A stretch of 64,000 bases of DNA. It comes from Glycomyces sp. TRM65418 (GTDB lineage Bacteria > Actinomycetota > Actinomycetes > Mycobacteriales > Micromonosporaceae). Shown here one piece after another: positions 3,505-7,626 of the stretch. The notes under the pieces were generated by a model that saw only the letters and a list, made by a program, of their open reading frames with translations, was not told the DNA's origin and searched no databases. The DNA lies in the NCBI RefSeq assembly GCF_019710475.1, contig NZ_JAJFAX010000001.1, forward strand, positions 744,001-808,000. The letters are read 5' to 3'. The translations under genes and the position numbers were made by a program. The number at the start of each line of letters is the position of its first letter. The stretch's first letter is position 1.

Positions 3505-4776
3505 CTACGCGCGCAGGTGGTTGGCGAAGACGTGCTCGCCGACCCGGTTCCCGAGCTTGACGCCGGCGTCCCCGTCGAACTGGTAGTGGACGCCGAGGAA
3601 GACCCGGCTGCGGGCGTTCTCCTCGGCCGCGGCGGTGAACGACTGGTACAGCCGGGTCTCGCCGTCCTTGGAGTGGGGGTCCTCGGTGCCGACGGTGTAG
3701 GAGGTCTCGTCGGTGTCGAAGAACAGCCGCATGATCGCGGCCCAGGCCCCGCCGAACGTCGCGTGACCGGAGACGTAGGCCGGGAAGGGCGGCGAGAACG
3801 ACTCGCCCCTGCGGTTCTGCGACAGCGGCTCCCAGCCGGCGTCGGGCTGCGTGTCGGGGCGCCCGTCGCGGTCGGCGTAGCGGATGGCCTGTTCGGGCCT
3901 CCACAGGTCGATGCTGGTGCGGTACTTGGCGTCCCAGGCGGCGATCCCGGCGTCGCCCAGGGCGAGGCCGAGCAGCCCGAACAGGCGCACGTTCTGCTCG
4001 ACGCCGAGTCCGACCTGGCGGGAGAGGCGCGCGGCGGCGTCGAACAGCTGCCCCGGCGGCTTGTAGGTGCCGTCGAGGTCGTTGGCCCAGAAGAAGGCGA
4101 TCCGGGCTTCCTCCTTGGTGCGGCTCCGCGAGTCCCGGCCGCCGAGTTCGCGGACCTCTTCGAGCTGACGCTCGTACAGCGGCGAGGCCATCAGCCGCGC
4201 GTACTCGTCGCAGCCGTCGGGCGGCGGGGGCCGGAACTGGCCGCCGTCCTTGAGGGTGAACGGGGTGACGCCGCCCCAGTGGGGGGTCGCGGCCGGACCC
4301 GAAGGCGTGGGCCGCCAGGCGCCGGGCACCAGTTCGGACTCGTAGGAGTCGTCGCCGTCAGCGCCGTCCTCGGCGCGGTCGCGGACGATCGCCTCGGCGA
4401 CCGCGGCGCCGATGCGGGCGCCGCGGATGAGCTGGACCGGCGTGCAGCGCCCGCGGATCCGGGCGAACGACTCGTCGAGCTCGGCGCTGTAGTCGCGTCC
4501 GGAGTAGACGTTGCGGAGCACCTCGAAGGCCGCGTACGAGAGGGCGGCGGCGAGGACCGGCGGCTGGTCGTCGTCGGGCAGCTCGGGGGTCCGCGACCGG
4601 TACGGTGCGCCCTTGCGGGTCACCGACACCAGTGCGTCCCACTGGGCCGCGTGCATCATGGCGCCGGCGCGGGACAGCGGTCCGGGCGGACCGCCGACTT
4701 CCCTGAAGGTGGCGAGTAGCGTATCGTTCCAGTACAGGACCGGATCGAAGGCGTGTTCGTTCTTGGAATCGGCCAT
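3505..4776 (-). CDS. Vanadium-dependent haloperoxidase/PAP2-family protein
   Basis: A 423-residue all-alpha protein of the vanadium chloroperoxidase/PAP2 superfamily. The anion (vanadate or phosphate) pocket can be followed: Lys284 and Arg293 in K-Y-R-T-S-I-D-L-W-R-P, Ser336-Gly337-His338 in V-S-G-H-A-T-F, and Arg391 with His397 in R-V-F-L-G-V-H. These match the conserved Lys, Arg, Ser-Gly-His, Arg and His of the family. Actinomycete members have mostly been annotated by homology, and halide oxidation versus phosphatase activity cannot be decided here. No signal peptide is evident. The ATG at 4776 has AGGA eight bases upstream. The gene stands alone, upstream of and codirectional with the MarR regulator. 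Confidence 0.85.
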   Translation of the reverse strand: MADSKNEHAFDPVLYWNDTLLATFREVGGPPGPLSRAGAMMHAAQWDALVSVTRKGAPYRSRTPELPDDDQPPVLAAALSYAAFEVLRNVYSGRDYSAELDESFARIRGRCTPVQLIRGARIGAAVAEAIVRDRAEDGADGDDSYESELVPGAWRPTPSGPAATPHWGGVTPFTLKDGGQFRPPPPDGCDEYARLMASPLYERQLEEVRELGGRDSRSRTKEEARIAFFWANDLDGTYKPPGQLFDAAARLSRQVGLGVEQNVRLFGLLGLALGDAGIAAWDAKYRTSIDLWRPEQAIRYADRDGRPDTQPDAGWEPLSQNRRGESFSPPFPAYVSGHATFGGAWAAIMRLFFDTDETSYTVGTEDPHSKDGETRLYQSFTAAAEENARSRVFLGVHYQFDGDAGVKLGNRVGEHVFANHLRA

Positions 4777-5012: not shown

Positions 5013-5516
5013 TTAACCGAACGGCTGATCCTCGAATGCGCCGTGCAGTTTGCGGAGCAGGCCCCCGAGTTGCTTGCGCTCCTTGGCGTCGAGTCCCGCC
5101 AGTGCCTCTTCCAGGATCACCAGCTCGGCCCGCACGGCGCCCTCGACGGCCTCGCGGCCCGCTTCGGTCAGACGGATCTTGAGACCGCGCCGATCGCTCG
5201 GATCGGGAAGGCGCTCGACGAAGCCGGCCGACTCGAGCTTGTCGAGCCGACCGGTGAGCCCGCCGGAGCTGAGCATGAGGCTGGCGCCGATCTGCTTGGG
5301 CGAGAGGGTGAATGGTTCGCCGGAGCGCCGGATGCTGGCGAGGACGTCGAACTCGTTGCGCCCGATGCCGAACTCGGCGAACGCCGCGTGGTTCCTGGCG
5401 CTGACCTTCTGCGAGATGCGGTGGATGCGCCCGAAGAGGGCCATCGGGTCCAGCTCGAGATCGGGCAGCTCCCGATGCCACTGCTCGATGATCCGGTCGA
5501 CCGCGTCCTGCTTCAT
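5013..5516 (-). CDS. MarR-family transcriptional regulator
   Basis: A 167-residue winged-helix regulator of the MarR family. The helix-turn-helix lies around residues 60-95 (F-D-V-L-A-S-I-R-R-S-G... L-S-P-K-Q-I-G-A-S-L) followed by the wing with the D-P-S-D-R-R-G motif that is diagnostic of MarR proteins. It is transcribed divergently from the EamA/oxidoreductase genes across a 130-base gap that holds four regularly spaced half-sites. The natural reading is that it represses the exporter operon and perhaps itself, being released by a small ligand. The ligand is unknown; there is no Cys in an obvious redox-sensing position. Confidence 0.92.
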   Translation of the reverse strand: MKQDAVDRIIEQWHRELPDLELDPMALFGRIHRISQKVSARNHAAFAEFGIGRNEFDVLASIRRSGEPFTLSPKQIGASLMLSSGGLTGRLDKLESAGFVERLPDPSDRRGLKIRLTEAGREAVEGAVRAELVILEEALAGLDAKERKQLGGLLRKLHGAFEDQPFG

Positions 5517-5581
5517 GGCCTCATTCTGCCCTGCCCGCGTCGGTGGGACGGAAGTACCTCTGGGCGAGAAAACTCAGAGCC

Positions 5582-5635
5582 AAGCATCTTGATTTAAAGT
5601 AGCTTGCGTGTAAGCTACTTCTAGACAAGCTACTT
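5582..5635. promoter_or_regulatory. MarR operator array: four AAG-N3-CTT boxes, 15-bp period
   Basis: Four nine-base boxes of the form AAGNNNCTT begin at 5582 (AAGCATCTT), 5597 (AAGTAGCTT), 5612 (AAGCTACTT) and 5627 (AAGCTACTT), each separated by exactly six bases. The second is the exact reverse complement of the third and fourth. A candidate promoter for the plus-strand exporter, TTGATT (5589-5594) and TAAGCT (5611-5616), lies within the array, and the last box ends one base before the AGGAG ribosome site (5637-5641). Binding would therefore block both transcription start and early elongation. Confidence 0.75.
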
Positions 5636-5646
5636 CAGGAGTCGCA

Positions 5647-6552
5647 ATGAACCGCAGCACCACGGACCTCCTCCTCACCGCCCTCGCGCCGGTCATGTGG
5701 GGCACGACCTACCTGGTCACCACCGAGTTCCTCCCCGCCGACCGCCCCTTCCTCACCGCCATGATCCGCGCCCTCCCCGCGGGCCTGCTGCTGATCCTCC
5801 TGTCACGAAGGCTCCCCACGGGCGCCTGGTGGTGGCGGTCGGCCGTGATCGGCACGCTGAACATCGCCGCCTTCTTCGCGCTGCTCTTCATCGCGACCTA
5901 CCGCCTCCCGGGCGGCGTCGCCGCGGTGGCCGCGGCGGTCGGCCCGCTGGCGACGGCCGGTGCGACCCTGCTGATCCTGCACCAGAAAGTGCGGCTGCGG
6001 ACCTGGCTGCTCGGCCTGGCCGGCGTCGGCGGCGTCGCGATGGTGGTCCTGACGGCCCAGGCGAAGCTCGACACCGTCGGTGCGCTCGCCGGCGTCGGCG
6101 GCGCGGTCTCAATGGCGGTCGCGGTGGTCCTCACCAAGCGATGGGGCATGCCGAAGGAGGCCGGCCCGGCCGCCCTCGCCGGATGGCAGCTGACCGCCGG
6201 AGGGATCCTCCTCGTCCCCCTCGCGTTCGCCGTCGAGGGCGCGATCCCCACGCTCACCGGCACGAACCTCCTCGGCTACTTCTACCTGGGCCTGGTGAAC
6301 ACCGCTCTGGGCTACTGGCTGTGGTTCCGCGGCATCGGCCGCCTCTCGGTGGTCCCGCTGAGCTTCCTCGGCCTGCTGTCCCCGCTGACGGCCGCGACCC
6401 TCGGCTGGCTGTTCCTGGGCGAGACGTTCACCGCCTGGCAGACCGCCGGCTTCGCCGTGGCCCTGGCCGCCACCGTCACCGCCCAGCTCCAGAACCGGCC
6501 CCGGCAGCCGAAGCTCCCGGCCGAACCCCGGAAGCTCCTGGCCCACGTGTGA
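5647..6552 (+). CDS. EamA/DMT-family exporter
   Basis: A 301-residue integral membrane protein with ten predicted helices arranged as two EamA repeats, the drug/metabolite transporter (RhaT/YdcZ-like) architecture. The first repeat begins with L-L-T-A-L-A-P-V-M-W-G-T-T-Y and the second carries the matching L-V-N-T-A-L-G-Y-W-L-W-F segment. It should export a small metabolite or drug using the proton gradient. AGGAG at 5637-5641 sets the ATG start. It is divergent from the MarR gene and followed after 35 bases by an oxidoreductase, with a 12-base direct repeat (6551-6562, 6565-6576) in the gap. Confidence 0.9.
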   Translation: MNRSTTDLLLTALAPVMWGTTYLVTTEFLPADRPFLTAMIRALPAGLLLILLSRRLPTGAWWWRSAVIGTLNIAAFFALLFIATYRLPGGVAAVAAAVGPLATAGATLLILHQKVRLRTWLLGLAGVGGVAMVVLTAQAKLDTVGALAGVGGAVSMAVAVVLTKRWGMPKEAGPAALAGWQLTAGGILLVPLAFAVEGAIPTLTGTNLLGYFYLGLVNTALGYWLWFRGIGRLSVVPLSFLGLLSPLTAATLGWLFLGETFTAWQTAGFAVALAATVTAQLQNRPRQPKLPAEPRKLLAHV

Positions 6553-6587: not shown

Positions 6588-7220
6588 ATGCGCATCATCA
6601 TCTTCGGAGCGGCAGGCATGGTCGGCAGCCGCACCGCGGTCGAAGCCCTGGCGAGGGGCCACGAGGTCACCGCGGTCGTGAGAGACCCGAATCGCGAACT
6701 CCCCCAGGGCGTGGGCATCGAAGTGGGCGACGCGGGCGACCCCGCGGCGGCCGCCCGCCTGATCGAGGGCCACGACGCCGCGGTGAGCGCCGTCCGAGCC
6801 CCCGTCGGCCAGGAGGCGCTGCAGGTCGACGCGACCGCGGCCCTCCTCAAGGGCGCGGCGGTGAGCGGCGTGCGCCTGCTGATCGTGGGAGGCGCGGCCA
6901 CGCTCCGCGTGCCCGACAGCGGCAAGGCGGTCCTCGACGACCCGCGGTACATCGCGGAGGAATGGCGGGCGGTGGCCGAGGCCAGCGCGGCCCAGCACCG
7001 GCGCTGCATCGAGGAACGGGAGGCGGACTGGACCTATCTGAGCCCGCCGGCGATGCTCGCCCCGGGGGCGCGCACCGGCGCGTACCGCCTGGGCCGGGAC
7101 GATCTCCTGACCGACGCCGCCGGGATCTCGCGGATCTCCGCCGAAGACCTGGCGGTGGCGATCGTGGACGAACTCGAGCACCCGAAGCACCGCCGGACCC
7201 GATTCACCGTCGCCGCCTGA
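6588..7220 (+). CDS. NAD(P)-binding oxidoreductase, atypical SDR (YwnB-like)
   Basis: A 210-residue Rossmann-fold protein of the atypical short-chain dehydrogenase group (NAD(P)H-binding, YwnB/NmrA-like). The dinucleotide motif is M-R-I-I-I-F-G-A-A-G-M-V-G-S-R at the N-terminus; the V-R-D segment after strand two suggests NADP preference. It lacks the Tyr-x3-Lys catalytic pair of classical SDRs, so it may be a quinone/NADPH-sensing reductase or a regulatory binder. AAGGA seven bases upstream supports the ATG. It is the second gene of the MarR-controlled cluster and probably shares a transcript with the exporter. Confidence 0.85.
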   Translation: MRIIIFGAAGMVGSRTAVEALARGHEVTAVVRDPNRELPQGVGIEVGDAGDPAAAARLIEGHDAAVSAVRAPVGQEALQVDATAALLKGAAVSGVRLLIVGGAATLRVPDSGKAVLDDPRYIAEEWRAVAEASAAQHRRCIEEREADWTYLSPPAMLAPGARTGAYRLGRDDLLTDAAGISRISAEDLAVAIVDELEHPKHRRTRFTVAA

Positions 7221-7287
7221 ACGAGGCGATCCGAATTCGTCGATGAACCGGCCCGCAGAACACGAATGTAGTTCTAGCATGGGCAGC

Positions 7288-7626
7288 ATGGAGATCAGTG
7301 CAAAAGGAACCTTGGTAGAGGAACTCGTCCGCACCGCCGCAGAGTCCTCATCGGGGCGTGCGGGCCGGACCGTGCACGGCGGCAACGGGCGGATCCTGGG
7401 GCAGACCCTGGTCGCGTTGAACCGCGGCGCCGTCCTCGACGACAACCCCAACCCCGCTGAGACGACGTTCCTGGTGATCCGCGGCAAGGTGCGGCTCTCG
7501 GCAGGCGGAGAGGTCCAGGAGGGGGCGCCGTTCGAGGTGCTGGCGGTCCCCGACGTGGAGGACTACGACCTCGAGGCGCTGGAAGACGCCGTCGTGCTCC
7601 TCACCGTCGCCCGGCCTTCCGAATAG
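7288..7626 (+). CDS. Small cupin-domain protein
   Basis: A 112-residue single-domain cupin. Residues 30-105 show the cupin pattern G-x-V-L-D-D-N... E-T-T-F-L-V-I-R-G-K-V-R-L... and P-F-E-V-L-A-V-P, but the usual metal-binding His residues are mostly replaced (Asn/Glu positions), so metal-dependent catalysis is doubtful. Three in-frame ATGs (7243, 7279, 7288) compete; the conserved part begins at 7288 and none has a good Shine-Dalgarno, so the start is uncertain. It lies 67 bases after the oxidoreductase and ends before a strong hairpin, so it may be the last gene of the MarR-linked cluster. Confidence 0.75.
   Translation: MEISAKGTLVEELVRTAAESSSGRAGRTVHGGNGRILGQTLVALNRGAVLDDNPNPAETTFLVIRGKVRLSAGGEVQEGAPFEVLAVPDVEDYDLEALEDAVVLLTVARPSE

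Follow-up and report, generated by a model that had tools for sequence, protein, structure and literature searches.

The gap between a MarR-family regulator gene and the divergently transcribed gene of an EamA-family exporter in Glycomyces contains four copies of the box AAGNNNCTT at steps of exactly 15 bp. We examined this array in a 64-kb stretch of DNA (the window) and in homologous gaps. The array is probably the shared operator of a divergent pecS–pecM pair, on which regulator dimers would nucleate centrally and spread outwards. The elements of the gap and the flanking genes are the following.

5013–5516, minus strand: apparent PecS-type MarR regulator, 167 aa (Pfam MarR_2 3e-12, MarR 5e-12)
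5552–5560, no strand: weaker in-phase box, AAGTACCTC, with 5/6 box letters, two periods left of box 1
5582–5635, no strand: four-box array of AAGNNNCTT (boxes 5582–5590, 5597–5605, 5612–5620 and 5627–5635)
5585–5602, no strand: dyad 1, CATCTTGATTTAAAGTAG, 7/10 specified positions
5600–5617, no strand: dyad 2 (central), TAGCTTGCGTGTAAGCTA, 10/10 specified positions
5615–5632, no strand: dyad 3, CTACTTCTAGACAAGCTA, 8/10 specified positions
5589–5616, plus strand: promoter-like element of the exporter within the array, TTGATT-16-TAAGCT (TTGATT 5589–5594, TAAGCT 5611–5616)
5637–5641, plus strand: AGGAG, probable ribosome site of the exporter gene (from the sequence)
5647–6552, plus strand: apparent PecM-type EamA exporter, 301 aa (Pfam EamA 6.6e-33, two stretches)
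6588–7220, plus strand: NAD(P)H-binding protein (Pfam NAD_binding_10 1.1e-22)

The boxes start at 5582, 5597, 5612 and 5627 and are the only four matches to AAGNNNCTT in the window. Boxes 3 and 4 are identical (AAGCTACTT), box 2 (AAGTAGCTT) is their reverse complement, and the spacers differ from one another. A preliminary description of this DNA had reported the strict period and the relationships among the boxes correctly, and it had also correctly placed the array between a MarR gene (5013–5516) and an exporter/oxidoreductase unit (5647–6552 and 6588–7220), with its end (5635) one base before the ribosome site (5637–5641). The number of boxes is by itself ordinary, as about 3.0 matches are expected by chance per 64 kb and at least four were present in 41/100 shuffles. 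What is not ordinary is that all of the matches lie within one 54-bp stretch at fixed steps. The two-box pattern AAGNNNCTT-N6-AAGNNNCTT, which imposes the 15-bp step, had three overlapping matches in the 5,090,388-base genome, all in this gap, and its reversed control had none across the same 5.09 Mb. The weaker in-phase box at 5552 lies beyond a poor box at lattice place 5567 (3/6 letters); the position corresponding to 5552, lattice place −4, scored at least 5/6 in 7/22 Glycomyces.

The box had been taken at first for the operator unit, which it probably is not. A published PecS site straddles two boxes, and four boxes therefore make three overlapping dyads; on this ground AAGNNNCTT was set aside as the bound unit. 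Judged by its letters, the likely operator unit is the 18-bp dyad TANCTT-N6-AAGNTA, which we scored by the number of matches among its 10 specified positions. The three dyads follow one another at 15-bp steps with 3 bp in common between neighbors, and the boxes are the junctions at which adjacent dyads meet. The exact dyad had a single match in the whole genome, the central dyad at 5600–5617, and allowing one mismatch pointed to one place (C1:939297). Dyads with up to two mismatches occurred at 73 places versus 460 for the reversed control, which consists of other letters and is hence only a rough yardstick. Across these exact, one-mismatch and two-mismatch searches of its own genome, the dyad gave no sign of a wider regulon.

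The sequence of the MarR gene product looks PecS-type and that of the exporter PecM-type. According to one report (PMC6391409), PecS proteins carry a helical N-terminal extension in which a tryptophan is conserved, and the PecM with which they are paired contains two EamA copies. The Glycomyces protein has the MarR winged-helix domain (Pfam values above), and its best solved relatives were 8ylf (7.5e-33) and 8ylh (6.3e-31). Both alignments, which begin at residue 4 or 3, run through an N-terminal QW motif whose W13 aligns, by letters only, with the QW of 8ylf and 8ylh; W13 would thus fit the conserved tryptophan of the extension. The divergent exporter gene at 5647–6552 encodes both EamA stretches, and the 18-bp palindrome characteristic of the family is present in the gap with 10/10 positions (5600–5617). 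The protein matched 11 NCBIfam models, all below their cut-offs and none carrying the name PecS. Since no model passed its cut-off, the name rests on the N-terminal tryptophan and the two-EamA neighbor. The protein lacks cysteine, and it contains D57 and R90, which we take to be ligand-related positions. A gene for a 423-aa PAP2-superfamily protein (Pfam 8.3e-09; 3505–4776, minus strand) adjoins the MarR gene.

On the exporter side, TTGATT-16-TAAGCT is a plausible candidate promoter. The form TTGANN-16-TAAGNT with its AAG on the 15-bp lattice was found in 20/22 Glycomyces, 10/18 class and 5/50 family EamA gaps, whereas a stricter sigma-70 consensus scan of the window found nothing. The earlier proposal that the array covers a candidate promoter is plausible in view of the recurrence of the element but was not supported by the stricter scan. 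The NAD(P)H-binding gene is probably on the same transcript as the exporter, as the short gap between the two suggests. It is followed, within 6588–7626, by a gene for a 127-aa protein that is cupin-like by eye and had no Pfam match. In Sinorhizobium medicae and Shinella (L169, L222), a PecS-like gene is flanked by a cupin gene and by one for an NAD(P)H-binding or NmrA-type protein.

Conservation of the array was assessed in 150 loci, consisting of 22 Glycomyces loci (the window included), 8 other loci from the protein search and 120 fetched loci, the last being two sets of 60 chosen by hand from among the matches listed. Genus codes were assigned by hand from the search listings. L037 (same contig as L021), L034–L036 (contigs already in the set) and L041–L048 (weak matches) were left out, and L038–L040 were counted in the dyad and spacing scan only, being absent from the anchor, lattice, step, run and per-set pair counts. 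Because the loci share ancestry, the locus counts are not counts of independent events. A divergent EamA motif was present in 90/150 loci from 16 genera: 22 Glycomyces, 50 from the rest of the family and 18 from the class. Pairs of dyads 15 bp apart, both scoring at least 8/10, occurred in 31 of these 90 loci and in 10/16 genera (15/22 Glycomyces, 6/50 rest of family and 10/18 class), and the only other steps of up to 24 bp were 18 and 12, one each. Among Glycomyces dyads at this threshold the spacings were 15 (21 pairs), 30 (6) and 45 (1), with no others. An anchor dyad of at least 9/10 was available in 22/22 Glycomyces, 46/50 family and 18/18 class loci. Outside the anchor, lattice triplets (AAG/CTT) occurred at 117/350 positions on phase versus 39/4259 off phase in Glycomyces, 96/574 versus 79/7443 in the family and 80/262 versus 44/3263 in the class. 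The best period among 9–30 was 15 in each of the three sets.

We also counted runs of consecutive boxes, each matching at least 4/6 letters. At step 15 the runs comprised 4 boxes in 14 Glycomyces loci, 5 in 2 and 6 in 6, such that at least four boxes were present in 22/22. The family set had runs of 2 (19 loci), 3 (14), 4 (10) and 5 boxes (3), and the class set had runs of 2 (1 locus), 3 (11), 4 (3), 5 (2) and 7 boxes (1), the longest being in a locus of genus g94, which is probably Streptomyces. At steps of 11–14 and 16–18 no run exceeded two boxes in Glycomyces or three elsewhere. When the 22 Glycomyces intergenic stretches are aligned without gaps, the boxes stand out as the best-conserved columns and the spacer letters vary. 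Thus the search for conserved spacing in homologous MarR/EamA gaps that the preliminary description had suggested found it, and the loss of periodic boxes from close relatives, which would have counted against an operator, did not occur: the register is kept in 22/22 Glycomyces. With the strict period persisting in relatives that have the same gene pair, the array looks, as had been proposed, like an operator array for the neighboring MarR gene. Long arrays are found in Glycomyces and some g94 genomes, short ones in many family members. One dyad often suffices, since only 6/50 family loci have a step-15 pair and 19/46 anchored family loci lack a third box.

Several of these loci depart from the simple pattern. 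In L029 the array is apparently split into two groups of dyads that are out of register, with dyads at 69, 84 and 115 (steps of 15 and 31). In the class loci L112–L125 (g94), an additional CAAG is repeatedly seen to the left of the array, four bases ahead of the lattice AAG (CAAGAAAG), and AAG was present at offset −34 in 8/18 class loci. The EamA-divergent MarR gaps L038–L040 (Frigoribacterium MAGs and Arthrobacter cryoconiti) have another motif, in which two CTAAGNNCTTAG dyads at a distance of 21 bp form one long palindrome.

In Glycomyces the boxes are also graded around the best central dyad. The middle triplet of a box is shared by two adjacent dyads and can serve only one of them well. 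For boxes adjacent to the anchor, the direction of the match is built into the choice of anchor; the outer boxes are free of that bias. Among Glycomyces outer boxes scoring at least 5/6, those on the left had TAN in 22/27 cases and NTA in none, and those on the right had NTA in 18/20 and TAN in none. The corresponding values were 5/10 TAN (left) and 1/2 NTA (right) in the family, and 2/18 TAN with no NTA (left) and 2/3 NTA (right) in the class, the remainder being neither. Thus no well-matched flanking box had NTA to the left of the anchor or TAN to its right, and the grading, which is clear in Glycomyces, is weak in the other sets and reversed in none. Many outer boxes in relatives preserve only the half facing the center, which was a second reason for setting the box aside as the bound unit.

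The main rival to a co-filled array is exclusive binding, in which the overlapping dyads are alternatives. Dimers would then occupy only the central dyad, or else only the two outer ones, which lie 30 bp (about 2.9 turns) from each other, and the result would be a switch that is graded or has two states rather than a continuous multimer. Dyads with 3 bp in common might exclude each other, and the shared triplet that fits only one of them well can be read in this way, as can the presence of a single strong dyad (at least 8/10) in 38/50 family EamA loci. However, at least four boxes are in register in 22 Glycomyces species, and Agrobacterium fabrum PecS is described as binding both of its overlapping sites (PMC12288460) and Vibrio vulnificus PecS as cooperative across the whole gap (PMC6391409). 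We therefore regard exclusive binding as unlikely, although it is the alternative to be taken most seriously.

Gaps of related regulators keep other step lengths. We examined 20 PecS-like paralogues from Glycomyces (L195–L214), chosen from among the matches listed, and the two-box 15-bp pattern was absent from all 20 gaps. Instead, 13/20 (L196–L208, 541-bp loci) contained two dyads with the same arms (TANCTT/AAGNTA) at a strict 21-bp step, or two turns, most of them with the center CTTCC-N2-GGAAG; of the remaining gaps one had a 12-bp step, one had a single dyad and five had none. Step length thus tracks the regulator, an argument for selection acting on the spacing. The gene facing the regulator in L196–L208 looks DsbA-type by eye (DCYFDPACPYAW). 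The shared arm letters in these 13 gaps make cross-binding possible, and the array in the window might then serve another protein, whether a different MarR or some other regulator, rather than the neighboring PecS. The paralogue sites differ in center and step, though, the 15-bp array accompanies the pecS orthologue in 22/22 Glycomyces, and in a search of its own genome at E ≤1e-10 the only match of the MarR protein was itself. Service to another protein is accordingly very improbable.

Of the 150 PecS-like loci, 60 had no EamA motif in the fetched stretch, and their commonest step was 11 bp (11 loci), followed by 15 (7) and 16 (2). In the 11-bp loci (L051, L052, L055–L057, L071, L072, L076–L078 and L092), the second dyad lies one turn away, such that both dyads would face the same side of the DNA. 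We also inspected 21 named plasmid-borne PecS-like gaps, 18 of them non-actinobacterial, with gene starts that are approximate where the record is unannotated. In 5/21, from Vibrio THAF64, Photobacterium, Calothrix, Kovacikia and Sinorhizobium meliloti, a dyad of at least 8 lay exactly 15 bp from one of at least 7. The gap of S. meliloti, a relative of A. fabrum, had a 9/10 and a 7/10 dyad at this distance near the exporter start, and also two 16-bp steps. Eight other plasmid-borne gaps had at least two dyads at steps of 20, 26, 30, 37, 46, 47 or 61, three had a single dyad and five had none. The 15-bp pairs on non-actinobacterial plasmids indicate that PecS makes wider use of the 15-bp overlap as one option among several, and that some Actinobacteria lengthen it.

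Two further explanations deserve little weight. The repeats might act as RNA, with a leader hairpin controlling the exporter and the DNA symmetry secondary; 5582–5646 does fold at −19.3 kcal/mol (z −2.17, with 7/200 shuffles as good), but this fold is modest, boxes 3 and 4, being direct repeats, cannot pair with each other, and a transcript start presumed to lie within the array would leave most of it outside the exporter message, such that we consider control by RNA highly doubtful. That the period is a functionless trace of tandem duplication, as the identity of boxes 3 and 4 might suggest, is the least credible explanation, because the spacers differ between boxes, the register is kept in 22 species despite varying spacer letters, and box runs are found in several genera.

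The most probable explanation is a co-filled operator. Its sequence, period, conservation and homology, and in Glycomyces the grading around a center, are observed here; binding, cooperativity, repression and ligand release are inferred as follows. Weighing against it are the scarcity of step-15 pairs in the rest of the family, the weak left-side polarity in the class, the rarity of the promoter form in family gaps, the negative strict promoter scan, the 11-bp steps of PecS gaps lacking EamA and the chance that dyads with 3 bp in common exclude each other. PecS-type dimers would bind the 18-bp dyads at 15-bp steps (about 1.43 turns). Because 15 bp is about 154 degrees past one full turn, as calculated with 10.5 bp per turn, adjacent dimers would be placed almost on opposite sides of the helix, with 3 bp in common. 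The first site bound is likely to be the perfect central dyad at 5600–5617, from which the flanking dyads (7/10 and 8/10) would fill outwards with the help of the bound neighbor; central nucleation and spreading are proposed by analogy with V. vulnificus and A. fabrum PecS. Cooperative binding or wrapping by oligomers, as suggested in the preliminary description, may take place on the array. Occupancy would block pecM, because the array covers TTGATT-16-TAAGCT and reaches the ribosome site, and would also autoregulate pecS. The ligand of characterized PecS proteins is urate or xanthine, which lowers DNA binding, and such a ligand would be expected to release the dimers and end the block.

A more general interpretation, which we put forward tentatively and do not favor at present, is that PecS is a nucleated two-sided multimer, in which a perfect central dyad seeds 15-bp spreading on alternating faces over 4–7 boxes to sheathe the promoter region, and that step length is an evolving subfamily code. 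If true, this code would read 15 bp at pecM, 21 bp at the paralogue and 11 bp in certain gaps that lack EamA, would keep regulators with the same arms apart, and would set the sharpness and ligand resistance of exporter silencing. The strict 15-bp lattice, with as many as 6 boxes in Glycomyces and, in one g94 locus, 7, is kept across species, and the same-arm paralogues keep another strict step. If the sites co-fill, the number of boxes would naturally tune both cooperativity and the ligand-resistant saturated state observed with V. vulnificus PecS, and the 2–7 boxes found across loci are a natural series in which this idea can be tested directly.

Known systems share parts of this arrangement. 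The PecS of Streptomyces coelicolor, an actinobacterial and urate-responsive protein, reportedly has several potential sites in its gap. MarR sites are usually given as 16–18 bp palindromes (PMC6391409), and they usually number one or two per gap. The V. vulnificus report describes the perfect site of V. vulnificus PecS, TATCTTTATATTAAGATA, as an 18-bp palindrome, which has the form TANCTT-N6-AAGNTA, and reports gap binding with a Hill coefficient of 2.7, coverage of the whole gap at excess protein and a ligand-resistant saturated complex (PMC6391409). The divergent pecS–pecM pair and the form of the dyad are thus common to both organisms, and V. vulnificus PecS binds cooperatively as several dimers; in contrast to the Glycomyces array, its two main sites have centers 57 bp apart, with no overlapping 15-bp run in the text available (PMC6391409).

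Two other regulators provide further parallels. BldC assembles cooperatively into multimers on repeats whose extent varies, but it is MerR-like and oligomerizes head to tail on direct repeats (PMC5859096), whereas a test of the Glycomyces array for a BldC-like direct-repeat operator found inverted dyads as its units. ForJ, a MarR regulator of Streptomyces formicae, has two back-to-back sites at one promoter, where a dimer of dimers is proposed to wrap the DNA; its site is a 14-bp AT-rich sequence and its dimers are joined by a redox disulfide, unlike the cysteine-free Glycomyces protein (PMC12421854). A search of the open-access literature found no paper describing a 15-bp overlapping PecS or MarR array, and we do not claim that none is in print. 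A close precedent is A. fabrum PecS, for which footprinting located one site at pecS and, at the pecM promoter, two that overlap (PMC12288460). Overlap is common to both systems, with just two sites overlapping in A. fabrum, and since overlapping PecS sites are known there, the Glycomyces array is an extended variant. Judged against the open texts, what is new is the extended, graded form that overlapping PecS operators would take in Glycomyces.
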